From a virus, in IMG/VR virus record IMGVR_UViG_3300029319_000336, positions 1-29,332 of that record: 29,332 bases of DNA; one strand, written 5' to 3'. The position numbers and the translations under genes were made by a program. Under the pieces are notes generated by a model. It was given only the letters and a program-made list of their open reading frames with translations. It was not told the origin of the DNA and did not search any database. Shown piece after piece: positions 3,011 through 25,270 of the stretch (its first letter is position 1; every line of letters starts with the position of its first letter).

Positions 3011-4344
3011 TAGTAACCTACCGCTGCTGTGCCTGGACTTGAATCATAATCAATATCGTAAATTGGTTGTAATTCTTTGAATGATAAATCTAACTGCATT
3101 GAAACAGGTGTACCATCATCATAAGTTGAATATACCCCATCAGCTGTATATGTTGTTTGCATATCTGTCAAGAAACACTGCTTAAATTTATTTAAGAAGG
3201 GATGATCTTTATTTCCAGTACGATATCTTAATTTAAATATGTTTGGTGTTCTTAAAAAGAAGTTTGCTCCATCTGATACACCACCTTGTGCTTGAGGTGC
3301 CATGTTTCTTTTAAATGCACGAATAATTAATTTTACTTGTTCTGCTTCTTTTTTATTACGAGGTGTTAGTTTAAATGAAAATCTAAAGTTTCTAATTGTG
3401 ACATCACTGAATAGAAGTTCCATGTTTGGATTTAATATCTCACCATTACCTCTTGCCAGTAGTTGATTAGGAGTTACGTTTGCACCAAAGATATTAACTG
3501 CCTCTGCAGCTAATTTTTTGGTAAGAACATCTGCTGCTGTAGCTAAAGAAGTGCTTCTATCACCACCAAGTCCTTTTGTCAAACCCTCCTGCACTCCCTT
3601 GTTAAACCCAGTTAAATCAAATGATTCTTGCTGTGCAAGTGCAGTTCCCATCCCTTTCATTGCCTCTTCAACTTTTGATACACCTAAAGCAGCAAGACCA
3701 TTCATCTTAGAGTCACCATAGACAACATTGTTAGTGTCTTGTAATTGTGATGGTATTGGTAATAATATTGTACCTGCATTTATCAGTGGTTTGCGAGACA
3801 ACTTATTAGTACGAGTTGCACCAGCACGATTTGTTATAAAATTACCAGTCACATAACGATTACTTCCACCAGTTGGTGATACATACTTATCACCAATCGC
3901 TTCATATCTTTCAATGTCTATTTGTAAGTAATCAGCATGTTCTGTTAATAATTCTGCTGGATATCTTAATACACCACCCTGTATCTTTCTACCATATTTT
4001 TGTAATCTTTTTTTCTTTAAATCTCTATTCTCATTTTTTATTTTTTCTACTTCGTCAAGATTTTCTTTACTTGTATTTGCTAAATTAAGTCTCTCCTGAT
4101 AAGTATCATTATTACCGTTTTCATTACCGTTTCCATTACCGTTTCCATTAACTTCTACTAAAATATTATTTTTCTTTAGATCAGCATTATCATTATTCTC
4201 TATTTTATCACTATTATTAGTGGTTTCAGTGATTGGAATTATTTCTGTTCCATTAAATCTATCAAATATTTTACCATCTTTCTCTATGTAAAATCCTGTT
4301 CGTAAATATGCATCTACTACACTTTTTTTCTGTTTAACTGCCAT
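3010..4344 (-). CDS. 48: gp48 baseplate tail-tube cap protein
   Basis: T4 gp48 tops the baseplate hub and seeds polymerisation of the tail tube. This 444-aa product is longer than T4 gp48 (364). The C-terminal half carries the tube-fold pattern (FRFSFKLTPRNKKEAEQVKLIIRAFKRNM, then LRTPNIFKLRYRTG, then a final beta region YDDGTPVSMQLDLSFKELQPI). The N-terminal part holds a Gly-Asn low-complexity run (residues about 67-78) coded by a tandem 12-bp repeat, followed by a charged helix. A late-type promoter (CATAAATA, minus strand 4363-4370) lies 18 nt before the start. The neighbours gp53 and gp4 are also T4 morphogenesis genes. The residue-level match to gp48 is moderate; position and fold pattern support it. 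Confidence 0.82.
   Translation of the reverse strand: MAVKQKKSVVDAYLRTGFYIEKDGKIFDRFNGTEIIPITETTNNSDKIENNDNADLKKNNILVEVNGNGNGNGNENGNNDTYQERLNLANTSKENLDEVEKIKNENRDLKKKRLQKYGRKIQGGVLRYPAELLTEHADYLQIDIERYEAIGDKYVSPTGGSNRYVTGNFITNRAGATRTNKLSRKPLINAGTILLPIPSQLQDTNNVVYGDSKMNGLAALGVSKVEEAMKGMGTALAQQESFDLTGFNKGVQEGLTKGLGGDRSTSLATAADVLTKKLAAEAVNIFGANVTPNQLLARGNGEILNPNMELLFSDVTIRNFRFSFKLTPRNKKEAEQVKLIIRAFKRNMAPQAQGGVSDGANFFLRTPNIFKLRYRTGNKDHPFLNKFKQCFLTDMQTTYTADGVYSTYDDGTPVSMQLDLSFKELQPIYDIDYDSSPGTAAVGY
4111..4146. repeat. Tandem 12-bp repeat within gp48
   Basis: Three consecutive copies of a 12-mer (ATTACCGTTTCC on the plus strand; the first copy differs at one base), followed by a partial copy. It encodes a Gly-Asn run in gp48. 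In-frame copy number could change by slippage without breaking the gene. Confidence 0.85.
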
Positions 4345-5169: not shown

Positions 5170-5784
5170 GTGGCAGAGACACTAGTTAAACCGTTTAATA
5201 TGGCAATTGCCAATCGTCTGATGGGACCTTTGGCGCAAACAAATCATTTTTTAGTGACAATATCATCGTTGACACCAGAGGTTGAGAGTTATATTCAGCA
5301 ATATAGTAATGCCTCTGATTTTAGAAGATTTCTTGCGGAAAGGGGAGGAATACTTTGTAGTGATGCTAGTTTACCAACAACATCATACGCAACAGCAGAG
5401 GTGAGAGATAATTTTATGGGTATACCTCAACAGTATGCACATACTAGAATCTACACAGATATTGATTTTACTTTTTACGTTGATGAAAATTACACACTTT
5501 TAAAGATATTTGAAGGTTGGATGGAATATATTTCAAGTGGTGCTAATCCTTTGATGCAACAAGCAACAAAATCTTATTATCGCAGAATGAGATATCCTGA
5601 TTCATATAAGTGTAATACATTGTATATTAACAAATTTGAGAAAGACTTTAAAAGAACAATGAGATATCAATTTGTGAATGCTTTCCCTAAGAGCATGTCA
5701 TCCGTTCCAGTTTCCTACGGACCTGCTGATATATTAAAAGTTACTGTATCTTTCAATTATGACCGCTATATAGTAAGAGGTTAA
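5170..5784 (+). CDS. Tail tube-fold protein (gp19-like, possibly in the gp54 role)
   Basis: A 204-aa protein with the features of the T4 gp19 tube family: an opening LVKPFNMAIANRLMGPLAQTNHFLVTI, the mid-domain pattern GILCSDASLPTTSYATAEVRDNFMGIPQQYAHTRIYTDIDFTFYVDENY, and a closing beta segment ILKVTVSFNYDRYIV. gp19 forms the inner tube; gp54, with the same fold, starts it on top of gp48. Because this gene sits next to gp48/gp4 and before the hub genes, away from any sheath gene in the window, it could be the initiator or a second tube paralogue. The start is GTG at 5170; an in-frame ATG at 5200 is the alternative. Neither has a strong ribosome site, but the extra residues fit the family N-terminus. 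Confidence 0.82.
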   Translation: MAETLVKPFNMAIANRLMGPLAQTNHFLVTISSLTPEVESYIQQYSNASDFRRFLAERGGILCSDASLPTTSYATAEVRDNFMGIPQQYAHTRIYTDIDFTFYVDENYTLLKIFEGWMEYISSGANPLMQQATKSYYRRMRYPDSYKCNTLYINKFEKDFKRTMRYQFVNAFPKSMSSVPVSYGPADILKVTVSFNYDRYIVRG

Positions 5785-5820: not shown

Positions 5821-6537
5821 ATGCCATTACCTAAGATTAATACTCCGACGTATGATTTGACCTTACCATCGAATGGAAAGAAAATAAAATACAGACCATT
5901 TTTGGTGCGTGAGGAAAAAATTCTCATCATGGCACTCGAAACTGAGGATCAGAAACAAATCACATCGGCAGTAATTCAGATATTGACTGCATGTATCATG
6001 ACAAGGGGTGTCAAACTAAATGAATTAGCAACCTTTGATATTGAATATCTATTTTTAAATGTAAGATCAAAATCAGTTGGTGAAACAATTACCTTGAATT
6101 TAATTTGTCCTGATGATGAAAAGACGAGCGTTGAAGTTACGATTGATCTAGATGCAATTAAAGTTAAAAAAGACAAGTCTCATACAAATATTGTCAAACT
6201 TGATAATAATTTGTCTATGAAACTTAAATATCCATCTATGAAGCAATTTATAGAGAGTAATTTTGAAGCAGGTGTTGAGACTGTTAGTAATACAATGGAT
6301 GTAGTCATATCATCTATTGATATGATTTACAATGAAGAGGAAAGTTGGAGTGCATCTGAATCAACTAAAAAAGAACTTGAAGAATTTATTGATCAATTGA
6401 ATACTAAACAGTTTAAATTGATAGAAAATTTCTTCGATACAATGCCCAAATTAACACATAAGGTGAAGGTGTTGAATCCAAAAACAAACGTAGAGTCAAC
6501 TGTTTTATTGGAGGGACTGGCAGCTTTTTTCAATTAG
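5821..6537 (+). CDS. 26: gp26-like baseplate hub assembly protein
   Basis: A 238-aa protein of the T4 gp26 type (T4: 208 aa), which is required to assemble the central baseplate hub and is thought to act as an assembly factor. Visible signature: LPSNGKKIKYRPFLVREEKILIMALE at residues about 15-40, then DIEYLFLNVRSKSVGE and a central NLICPDDE. The C-terminal half is helical and acidic. The last sense codons GCT TTT TTC contain a T_TTT_TTC slippery heptamer just before the TAG, with a stem-loop downstream. A fraction of ribosomes may therefore shift into the -1 frame and extend the protein into the next ORF, giving about 298 aa. A late-type promoter lies upstream. Confidence 0.85.
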   Translation: MPLPKINTPTYDLTLPSNGKKIKYRPFLVREEKILIMALETEDQKQITSAVIQILTACIMTRGVKLNELATFDIEYLFLNVRSKSVGETITLNLICPDDEKTSVEVTIDLDAIKVKKDKSHTNIVKLDNNLSMKLKYPSMKQFIESNFEAGVETVSNTMDVVISSIDMIYNEEESWSASESTKKELEEFIDQLNTKQFKLIENFFDTMPKLTHKVKVLNPKTNVESTVLLEGLAAFFN

Positions 6538-6567
6538 GTATGGCTCACACGAATCTAGAGTCATACT
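6525..6567 (+). promoter_or_regulatory. Predicted -1 ribosomal frameshift signal (slippery site plus stem-loop)
   Basis: The slippery heptamer T_TTT_TTC at 6525-6531 is in the gp26 reading phase (X_XXY_YYZ). It is followed 5-6 nt later by a stem of 9-10 pairs: 6537-6546 (GGTATGGCTC) with 6558-6567 (GAGTCATACT), including two G-U pairs, and an 11-nt loop. After the shift the frame reads CAA TTA GGT ATG and continues without a stop into the ORF ending at 6716. The stem also covers the ATG of that ORF, which would hinder independent initiation. Confidence 0.7.
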
Positions 6568-6716
6568 ACAAGACAAATTTTGCCTTGATTCAGCATCATA
6601 AATACTCTTTGACTGAGATTGAAAACTTGATCCCTTGGGAAAGAGAGATCTATATATCATTGTTGCAACAACATATTGAAGAGGAAAACTTAAAAGCACA
6701 ACAAAGAAATGGATAA
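6540..6716 (+). CDS. gp51-position small ORF, probably expressed as a gp26 -1 frameshift extension
   Basis: From the ATG at 6540 the ORF gives 58 aa, rich in aromatic and charged residues (YYKTNFALIQHHKYSLTEIENLIPWERE) and ending in a Gln/Glu helix. It is in the -1 frame relative to gp26 and begins 2 nt after the gp26 stop. No well-spaced ribosome site precedes the ATG, which is buried in the predicted stem-loop, so frameshifting from gp26 is the more likely route. The pattern W-E-R-x-x-Y-x-x-L is typical of short C-terminal extensions in tail assembly chaperones. In T4-like phages the gene next to gp26 is gp51, another hub assembly factor, but similarity to T4 gp51 (249 aa) is not evident. 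Its end overlaps the next gene by 8 nt. Confidence 0.7.
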   Translation: MAHTNLESYYKTNFALIQHHKYSLTEIENLIPWEREIYISLLQQHIEEENLKAQQRNG

Positions 6717-8082
6717 ATCATCTCCCGTCTTTGAAAATTTTGAGAATAAAATGGCTGCTATGAGTGGCAGACCAAAGATTAATAGGAACACCTTTAAAAT
6801 AGGAGCAGGTGGTCTTGAGGGGAGAGTCGCCAATAATGAAAAGAAGATTACTACATTAAAAAATATATTCAAGGCACAAAGAGTTGAGATTGGAGAGAGG
6901 ATCACTCCGAAGGTAAATATATTAGAAGAGTCATTAATTAATACAAATTTAATTCTATCAGACGTTGCTAGGCAATTAGAAAAGGATTTTAGTAATCGAA
7001 TAAAAACTGAGAAACTTTTACTCTCAAAGGAAAGGCAAGATAAATTAGATCAAAAACGTGACAGTAAAGAAAATAGAATAGAAACTAAAAAAATAGGTAA
7101 GATAGCAACCTCGATAGGAAATACAGTAGTCAAACCATTCCAGAATATATTTGATAAGTTGCTACAATTTGGACAATTATTCTTGGCAGGTGTTGGTGTT
7201 AATGCAGCATTATCGTGGTTGTCTGATCCTAAGAACTTTGAAAGATTTGAAAGCATTCTTAAATCAATACAAGAAAAACCTCTCATTGCATTGGGTGCTT
7301 TAGGTGGTGCAATATTTATTATGAATCGAGCACTATCAGGAACATTTAAAGCATTAAAAACGTTTGCAGGAACAATAATTAATTTTTTTAAAAATCCTAA
7401 AAAATTTCTAAAAACTTTTCTACCTAAACTTAGTAGGACAATACAAAAAAAAGCAATTCAAACACCCACAAAGTTTTTCTTAAATAAAGTCACTAAAAAA
7501 ATTGCTCAAAAAACTGGTCTCAAAGCATTGGGTCTTATTCCTGGTATTGGTGATTTAGTTGACGTTGGTGTTGCGATTTATAGATTCAGTCAAGGAGATA
7601 TAGCAGGTGGTTTCTTATCATTAGGTAGTGCGATTCCATTTGTTGGTTGGGGTTTTGCAGCTCTTGATATTGCAAGAGAATTTAATGCACCATTCTTGAA
7701 AGATTCACTATTAGATAAGAAGAGATATGATGATAAGAAGGAAAATACGAAAAAAAGAGCAATAGGTGGTCCATTCTCAGCTCAGGAGACTGTTGTATTT
7801 AATGAGGATACTCCACTTCCAATAGAATTTACTGCGTTGACTGGAGGTAAAGTCATGACTGCAGCTCAGATGGATAGGATAAAAGGTTTAAGAGCTGAAA
7901 ATGGTGGATCAAATATAGCAATCATGGATTTACCAGTGAAAGATTTAAGAACTAAACAAATAAAACAAGTAGAACCAGGCGGAGATTCGACTGTTGGTGA
8001 ACCCGAATCATATTCGTCAACTGACAATAATCCATATCTATCTGAGTTTAATATAATGGCTGACTTAGGAGAGAAAGTATAA
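6709..8082 (+). CDS. Putative tape-measure or hub-core protein (gp29 position)
   Basis: A 457-aa protein following the gp26 assembly genes and preceding gp27, where T4-like phages place hub and tape-measure functions. Residues 40-125 are predicted coiled coil with many Lys/Glu. Residues 139-170 hold a hydrophobic helix (KPFQNIFDKLLQFGQLFLAG) that recurs in the next protein. Residues 190-235 and 273-325 are strongly hydrophobic, the latter with LIPGIGDLVDVGVAIY and a GD-x-x-GG-x-LSLGSAIPFVG-x-G segment, suited to membrane insertion during DNA delivery. The tail is polar. Phage tape measures typically combine long helices with hydrophobic patches, so that role is likely but not proven; T4 gp29 is 590 aa. 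It is translationally coupled to the next gene by TAATG. Confidence 0.6.
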   Translation: MDKSSPVFENFENKMAAMSGRPKINRNTFKIGAGGLEGRVANNEKKITTLKNIFKAQRVEIGERITPKVNILEESLINTNLILSDVARQLEKDFSNRIKTEKLLLSKERQDKLDQKRDSKENRIETKKIGKIATSIGNTVVKPFQNIFDKLLQFGQLFLAGVGVNAALSWLSDPKNFERFESILKSIQEKPLIALGALGGAIFIMNRALSGTFKALKTFAGTIINFFKNPKKFLKTFLPKLSRTIQKKAIQTPTKFFLNKVTKKIAQKTGLKALGLIPGIGDLVDVGVAIYRFSQGDIAGGFLSLGSAIPFVGWGFAALDIAREFNAPFLKDSLLDKKRYDDKKENTKKRAIGGPFSAQETVVFNEDTPLPIEFTALTGGKVMTAAQMDRIKGLRAENGGSNIAIMDLPVKDLRTKQIKQVEPGGDSTVGEPESYSSTDNNPYLSEFNIMADLGEKV

Positions 8083-23779: not shown

Positions 23780-25270
23780 ATGAAAAAATTTGTTATTGTT
23801 GGGTCTGGTTCAGCTGGACTCATTGCTGCTAGTATGATAAAGACTTATTGGAAAGATAAGGTAGATGTAACAGTTATACATGATAAAAGTCAAGGGAGCA
23901 TTGCAGTTGGAGAAAGCACTACTCCTTTAATTCATGGTTTTTTGCATTTTTTTGGATTATCGGAGAGAGATTTAATACGAGATTTAGATGTAACTATAAA
24001 ACTTGGAATAAATTTTAAAAACTGGATTCCCAGTACTGAGTATTTTCATGGATTTACTCAAGTTGTAAAAAAAGAAAAAGATAATGATCCAAGTTCAGTT
24101 TATAGTATTCTTAATAATGTTTATGATGGTGGATCTCTTTTTAATAAACCACTAAATGAAGTTCCAAAAAATATTTTTGATAATTATGCATACTCACTTC
24201 ACATTGATACAAAACAATTTACTGATTATATTCATGATAAATTAAAGAATATGGTTAATTTTGTAGATGATATTGTTACGAGAGTAAGAGTCAATACTGA
24301 ATGTACTAATATAGAAAGTATTGAGTGTAAGTATAATGGAATATTCAATGCTGACTATTTTATAGACGCATCTGGTTTTAATACCATATTATTCAAACAT
24401 CTCAATCCTAGATGGAATGATATATCTAAATATCTGCCGATTGATAGAGCAATTCCGCAACAAGTTCCTTATAATTTTAAAAATGAACTTCCATCTTATA
24501 CATTAGCAGAAGCAACAGATAATGGTTGGATATGGAGAATACCAATTGGGAATAGATATGGAACTGGTTATCTATATTCCTCTAAGTTTACGTCTGATGA
24601 AGAGGCACGAGAAAAATATAATGATTGGTTAGTCAAGAATTTTGACACTAAACTTACGAGTGATCGAATTATAAGATATAAACCTGGATACTACGAGGAT
24701 TATTGGATGGGTAATTGTCTAGCAATTGGTTTATCAAGTGGTTTTGTTGAACCACTAGAATCAACTGGACTTCATATTGTTATTACACAGGTATTAAATT
24801 TTATCAGATATAATTCAAGTTTAAAAAGTTTAGAGTTTGACAAAAAATCTGTTAATAAAATTAGTAGAGATTTTTACGTTGATACTATAAATTTCGTATG
24901 TTTACATTACAATACAAATCGAACTGACTCTGAATTTTGGAAATATATTACAGAGAATAAACTTGATTGGGTAAAAGATGTTGAACAAAAATGTAAGGAA
25001 GATTTTTTGGATATAACTTTCTTCAGAAATAATCCAACTCATAACATTTGGCCTTTAGAAAGTTATATATCAGTTGCACAAGGTTTGAATATGTTTAGTA
25101 AAGATGGAATACAAAATTATCTTAATTCAAAATCTGATGGAAGGGGAATAATTAAAGATGGTAATGAAATATTAGAATTTGCCAAAAATAAATATAAAAA
25201 TCAAATACATCAAAAAAATATTCAAGAATTTGTATCACATAAGGGAATAATAGACTCAATTCATAAATAA
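23780..25270 (+). CDS. Flavin-dependent tryptophan-halogenase-like enzyme (VirX1/PrnA family)
   Basis: A 496-aa FAD enzyme. The FAD-binding GxGxxG (G8-G13 in VGSGSAGL) opens the protein. GEST at 44-47 and the probable catalytic Lys (K74 in TIKLGINF, position of PrnA K79) follow. The halogenase hallmark W-x-W-x-I-P is exact (W250-I-W-R-I-P255). FVEPLESTG at 322-330 includes the Glu equivalent to PrnA E346. All residues needed for halide activation therefore appear present, so the gene is likely active. A cyanophage homologue, VirX1 from phage Syn10, is known to halogenate, preferring iodide. A flavin reductase partner would have to come from the host; none is seen here. The gene lies between two fibre genes, with no separate promoter visible, so it is probably expressed late. 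Confidence 0.88.
   Translation: MKKFVIVGSGSAGLIAASMIKTYWKDKVDVTVIHDKSQGSIAVGESTTPLIHGFLHFFGLSERDLIRDLDVTIKLGINFKNWIPSTEYFHGFTQVVKKEKDNDPSSVYSILNNVYDGGSLFNKPLNEVPKNIFDNYAYSLHIDTKQFTDYIHDKLKNMVNFVDDIVTRVRVNTECTNIESIECKYNGIFNADYFIDASGFNTILFKHLNPRWNDISKYLPIDRAIPQQVPYNFKNELPSYTLAEATDNGWIWRIPIGNRYGTGYLYSSKFTSDEEAREKYNDWLVKNFDTKLTSDRIIRYKPGYYEDYWMGNCLAIGLSSGFVEPLESTGLHIVITQVLNFIRYNSSLKSLEFDKKSVNKISRDFYVDTINFVCLHYNTNRTDSEFWKYITENKLDWVKDVEQKCKEDFLDITFFRNNPTHNIWPLESYISVAQGLNMFSKDGIQNYLNSKSDGRGIIKDGNEILEFAKNKYKNQIHQKNIQEFVSHKGIIDSIHK
25262..25269 (+). promoter_or_regulatory. Late-type promoter octamer for the Gly-rich adhesin
   Basis: CATAAATA, 19 nt before the ATG at 25289, overlapping the end of the halogenase gene. 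Confidence 0.55.

Follow-up and report, generated by a model that had tools for sequence, protein, structure and literature searches.

A gene 26 homologue and the small open reading frame (ORF) behind it, located in a 29,332-nt viral DNA (IMG/VR record IMGVR_UViG_3300029319_000336, here called the window), very probably encode the tail assembly chaperone (TAC) of a T4-like cyanophage. From this locus a short protein, TAC-N, and a longer one, TAC-NC, would be made by a programmed -1 frameshift at U_UUU_UUC. The phage belongs to the P-SSM2-like Kyanoviridae, and its nearest named phages by DNA were P-SSM2-like cyanophages and marine single-cell viruses. The features of the locus are as follows.

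5170 to 5784, plus strand: tail tube protein gene, directly 5' of gene 26 (PF23849, E 1.6e-20; phrog_45 tail tube, E 5.1e-38)
5821 to 6537, plus strand: gene 26 homologue encoding the putative TAC-N, the short tail assembly chaperone, 238 aa (PF12322 T4_baseplate, E 2.8e-67; phrog_150, E 5.7e-74)
6510 to 6515, plus strand: internal Shine-Dalgarno (SD)-like GGAGGG, 9 nt 5' of the heptamer (conserved SD-like 5-mer at a fixed gap, GAG bias)
6525 to 6531, plus strand: putative slippery heptamer T_TTT_TTC (sequence; T_TTT_TTN conserved in 262/264 loci)
6531 to 6716, plus strand: -1 frame extension, the putative TAC-C domain, 61 aa after the shift, annotated gp51 in cyanophages (phrog_634, phrog_150 C-terminus and T4 gp51 homology)
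6535 to 6537, plus strand: zero-frame stop TAG of gene 26 (sequence)
6537 to 6567, plus strand: predicted stimulatory hairpin of 10 bp, arms 6537-6546 and 6558-6567 (fold z-score; folding energy against controls; synonymous fixation in the 3' arm)
6709 to 8082, plus strand: candidate tape measure gene, 457 aa, mostly helical, its start overlapping the end of the -1 ORF (mainly position)

The 3' end of gene 26 reads GCT TTT TTC AAT TAG, so that the heptamer sits exactly in the X_XXY_YYZ phase that simultaneous -1 slippage requires, as the original prediction had stated from the window alone. The -1 frame is open to a stop at 6714-6716 and reads FFQLGMAHTNLESYY...QQRNG. A shift product would contain 237 + 61 = 298 aa, joined between AFF and QLGMAH, against 238 aa for gp26; the predicted extent of the fusion and its coordinates thus held. 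The gene 26 product covered positions 5-233 of the 282 in phrog_150 (baseplate hub). The -1 ORF matched phrog_634 (baseplate hub assembly catalyst, E 4.1e-29) and also the C-terminus of phrog_150 (237-280). The first part of phrog_150 is gp26 itself and its last part corresponds to the -1 ORF.

In-phase X_XXY_YYZ heptamers occurred 66 times in the 9238 codons of the window genes, so a lone heptamer near one gene end is weak evidence. Conservation was analyzed in 264 gp26 loci from IMG/VR and named phages, which took in KVP40, Aeromonas AS-zj, Stenotrophomonas YB07, Caulobacter Cr30, Methylophilales Melnitz and Ochrobactrum ORM_20. T_TTT_TTN ended gene 26 in 262 of them and was kept even in phages whose gp26 was only about 27-40% identical. 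The last base was free, being C in 208 loci, T in 25, and A or G in the remaining ones. Dereplication at 80% gp26 identity left 75 loci, 73 of them with the slippery site, and at 60% the site was present in 23/25. IMG/VR scans with the gp26 of ORM_20, Cr30 and KVP40 returned few or no further relatives. The number of independent loci also ruled out an artefact or sequencing error as the source of the signal. As judged from these alignments, the heptamer is conserved far beyond chance, and it is this conservation rather than the single occurrence that decides the case.

The selection was visible at the codon level. Among the 73 dereplicated loci, the codon before the Phe pair was GCT, TCT, AGT, GAT, AAT or GGT, ending in T throughout, with the encoded residue varying over five amino acids (A, S, D, N, G). 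The second Phe was replaced by Leu in some relatives, only as TTA or TTG, and the slippery run was kept. Since the preceding residue varied with a T-ending codon and Leu appeared only in these two forms, the pattern points to a constraint on the DNA rather than on the protein at this site. The first Phe codon was TTT in 73/73 loci, compared with 65% of Phe codons overall, and the wobble conservation of the heptamer gave a nominal log10 P of about -33, uncorrected for kinship among loci. It could be supposed that no recoding takes place and that the conservation merely follows from AT-rich codon usage and a conserved C-terminal EGL-x-FF in gp26, given that Phe-Phe is conserved and TTT is the preferred codon. 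However, the frequency of TTT among Phe codons and T-ending usage together cannot yield 73/73, and this explanation is contradicted by the codon identity among sequences with the same residue, which was 1.00 at the first Phe and 0.2-0.7 at other upstream positions of the gene. We give it virtually no probability.

An upstream element absent from the original prediction was found here. GGAGG, GAGGG, AGGAG or AGAGG was separated from the heptamer by 9 or 10 nt in 52/73 dereplicated loci, compared with 2.7% of control windows. The Glu codon at this element was GAG in 51 of 65 cases against 30% expected (p 1.4e-15). In the window, GGAGGG is 24 nt from the small-ORF ATG, too distant for a role in initiation. 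Given its fixed gap and codon bias, the element is likely to be an upstream frameshift stimulator.

Downstream of the heptamer, a stem of 9-10 bp starting 5-6 nt on had been predicted, and the window indeed has a predicted 10-bp stem after a 5-nt spacer. Folding of a 79-nt window segment gave -15.5 kcal/mol, with z = -2.9. Across the loci, hairpins starting 2-16 nt past the heptamer had a mean of -8.4 kcal/mol against -4.1 kcal/mol in control windows of the same genes (p 1.6e-11), and 3' structure at about 5-9 nt was found both overall and in the window. The hairpin sequences were unrelated between clades, with similar positions. The arms were GACGGCA...TGCCGTC in ORM_20 and AATGATGCAC...GTGCATCATT in the relatives of MC09. 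In the clade of the window, Glu in the 3' arm was encoded by GAG in 81/81 distinct sequences, compared with 34% elsewhere in the ORF; the clade filter behind this count required GTATG and CATAC, and only the GAG fixation is independent of that selection. An unfiltered alignment showed the same stem. Within this clade no covariation was seen, because the stem is nearly invariant there. Taken together, the folding energies and the codon fixation argue that the downstream hairpin is under selection. Of the features that the original prediction expected gp26 3' ends of relatives to share, the heptamer and the -1 ORF were thus recovered, and a hairpin at a similar position in different clades; in the Melnitz-like clade, however, the hairpin was weak or absent.

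These elements also bear on whether the fusion could arise from an altered mRNA, through slippage of RNA polymerase on the poly-T, instead of from ribosome slippage. Some polymerases can slip on six consecutive T, and the heptamer contains such a run. Yet the codon-frame phase was kept while the Z base was free to be C, T, A or G, and an internal SD at a fixed gap together with a hairpin 5 nt on are stimulators of ribosomes. Transcriptional slippage is therefore very improbable.

The manner in which the -1 ORF is translated was the next point on which explanations differ. The -1 frame was open through the site in 75/75 dereplicated loci, and it extended beyond the site in every complete one except S-SCSM1, in which it closed 8 nt on. 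In the window, the sole ATG near the ORF start (6540-6542) lies inside the stem and lacks a properly spaced SD, consistent with the predicted lack of a usable ribosome site. No ATG occurred in the first seven -1-frame codons in 27 of the 73 dereplicated loci, and only 3/73 had an SD-like 4-mer ahead of an ATG. Independent initiation therefore cannot be general, and a separate ORF with its own ribosome site, which had been named as evidence against the frameshift, was not a general feature.

A separate gp51 might still be made by termination-reinitiation, that is, by translational coupling at an ATG just past the gene 26 stop, the poly-T being incidental. The window ATG is 2 nt past the TAG, and the sequence at this point is TAATG in KVP40 and TGATG in YB07 and Cr30. 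Moreover, the two relatives without the heptamer, the Ackermannviridae Salmonella phage CRW-SP2 and Vibrio phage K483, both have a TAATG overlap and a -1 ORF. A disrupted heptamer in relatives had been put forward as a potential refutation; it occurred in these two phages, against 262/264 loci that keep T_TTT_TTN. Reinitiation has no early ATG to use in the 27 loci mentioned above, and it leaves unexplained the selection on the wobble bases of the heptamer and the in-frame T4 gp51 described below. As the sole route to gp51 we regard it as unlikely, although reinitiation and frameshifting could operate together. S-SCSM1 (locus L092, about 3200-3245) kept the heptamer, but its C domain lies in the +1 frame owing to an insertion of ~11 nt past the stop; a sequencing error, a loss or a change to reinitiation may account for this. 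How the C domain adjoins the next gene differed between relatives: in L007 no stop intervened and the -1 frame continued for 507 codons into the downstream gene, and in relatives such as L006, L018 and L021 that gene began at a GTG lying a few bases 5' of the -1 stop.

Comparison with T4 supported the frameshift reading. T4 gp26 and T4 gp51 both belong to PF12322, and the homology of the short product to T4 gp26 was also seen by hmmsearch (E 7e-25). T4 gp51 aligned over almost the whole profile of the fusion; the C-domain profile matched T4 gp51 (E 3e-9) but not T4 gp26. T4 gene 26 ends with GAG TTC TTT GAG TTA CTA TAA, without the heptamer. Since T4 gp51 matches the fusion and T4 gene 26 has no heptamer, T4 has a separate gene for each of the two forms, short and long, whereas in cyanophages and several further groups a single gene appears to supply both. 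The cyanophage gp51 is almost certainly the C-terminal domain of the gp26 frameshift product and not a free protein. This would explain why some 200 N-terminal residues of T4 gp51 are missing from cyanophage gp51 (Sullivan et al. 2010).

From the sequence evidence we infer that frameshifting occurs and that its efficiency is partial. Most ribosomes would stop at the gene 26 UAG and release TAC-N of 238 aa. Some would pause on U_UUU_UUC, held by the hairpin ahead, and internal SD pairing behind the ribosome probably adds to the pause. The tRNAs would then re-pair one base back, and the ribosomes would read 61 further codons to yield TAC-NC of 298 aa. If the system works as lambda G/GT does, coating of the tape measure protein would fall to the N domain, and the rare C domain would bring in tail tube subunits.

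The chaperone role is suggested by homology and gene order. The 457-aa downstream protein was almost all-helical in a predicted structure of low confidence (pLDDT 52); a PHROG search gave no tape measure call for it, and it had no homology to T4 gp29. It is a candidate tape measure protein mainly by position, together with its helical content. A comparison of the gp26 model with solved structures gave no significant match to a solved TAC; the HK97 TAC (2ob9) ranked 5th and 8th with weak scores (E 1.1-1.7, query TM 0.20-0.22). Elsewhere among the tail genes, a 496-aa protein at 23780-25270, starting MKKFVIVGSGSAGLIAASMIK, resembles a tryptophan halogenase or similar FAD enzyme in its motif.

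With this reading, very common marine phages need a corrected annotation, as their 'gp51' would be the frameshift domain of gp26. It also backs, with a large environmental sequence set, the 2022 assignment of gp26/gp51 to the tail assembly chaperones. The locus also offers a compact natural signal whose upstream and downstream elements have separately measurable contributions.

The abstract of the 2022 study of Vladimirov et al. reportedly covers the poly-T frameshift as well as the arrangement with a short plus a fused gene, in agreement with papers that cite it. As those papers relate (PMC12846349, PMC10885494), T4-like TACs were identified by Vladimirov, Gautam and Davidson 2022 (Virology 566:9-15). 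Citing that study, PMC12846349 describes poly-T -1 frameshift signals in T4-like TAC-N genes, and PMC10885494 describes a short gene accompanied by a long, fused one in certain T4-like phages. These are the same genes as in the window, with a poly-T -1 signal and the two-gene alternative. The suggestion in the original prediction that a gp26/gp51 frameshift was perhaps undescribed thus did not survive: by these citing accounts, the genes were named TACs and the kind of frameshift was reported for T4-like phages in 2022. In Vandenendeviridae/Andersonviridae, another phage family, the TAC locus likewise carries a conserved poly-T -1 frameshift signal, GTTTTT, ahead of its tape measure gene (PMC12846349). 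The three-part signal may be a new detail, the 2022 study being judged here through the papers that cite it. On the same basis we only tentatively propose that marine T4-like phages use a complete dnaX-type cassette (SD at 9-10 nt, T_TTT_TTN, hairpin at ~5 nt) to drive their TAC frameshift, an architecture undescribed for phage tail chaperones. The resemblance to lambda G/GT, which the original prediction had drawn, was supported by the 262/264 heptamers, the selected hairpin and T4 gp51 as an in-frame homologue of the fusion. In both systems a short protein has a -1 extension, and the pair lies between the tail tube and putative tape measure genes. The lambda slippery site is G_GGA_AAG, whereas a poly-T heptamer with a hairpin and an internal SD is found here. 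E. coli dnaX shares the upstream internal Shine-Dalgarno, slippery heptamer and downstream hairpin; it slips on A_AAA_AAG and the shift shortens its product, whereas in the window the shift would lengthen it.
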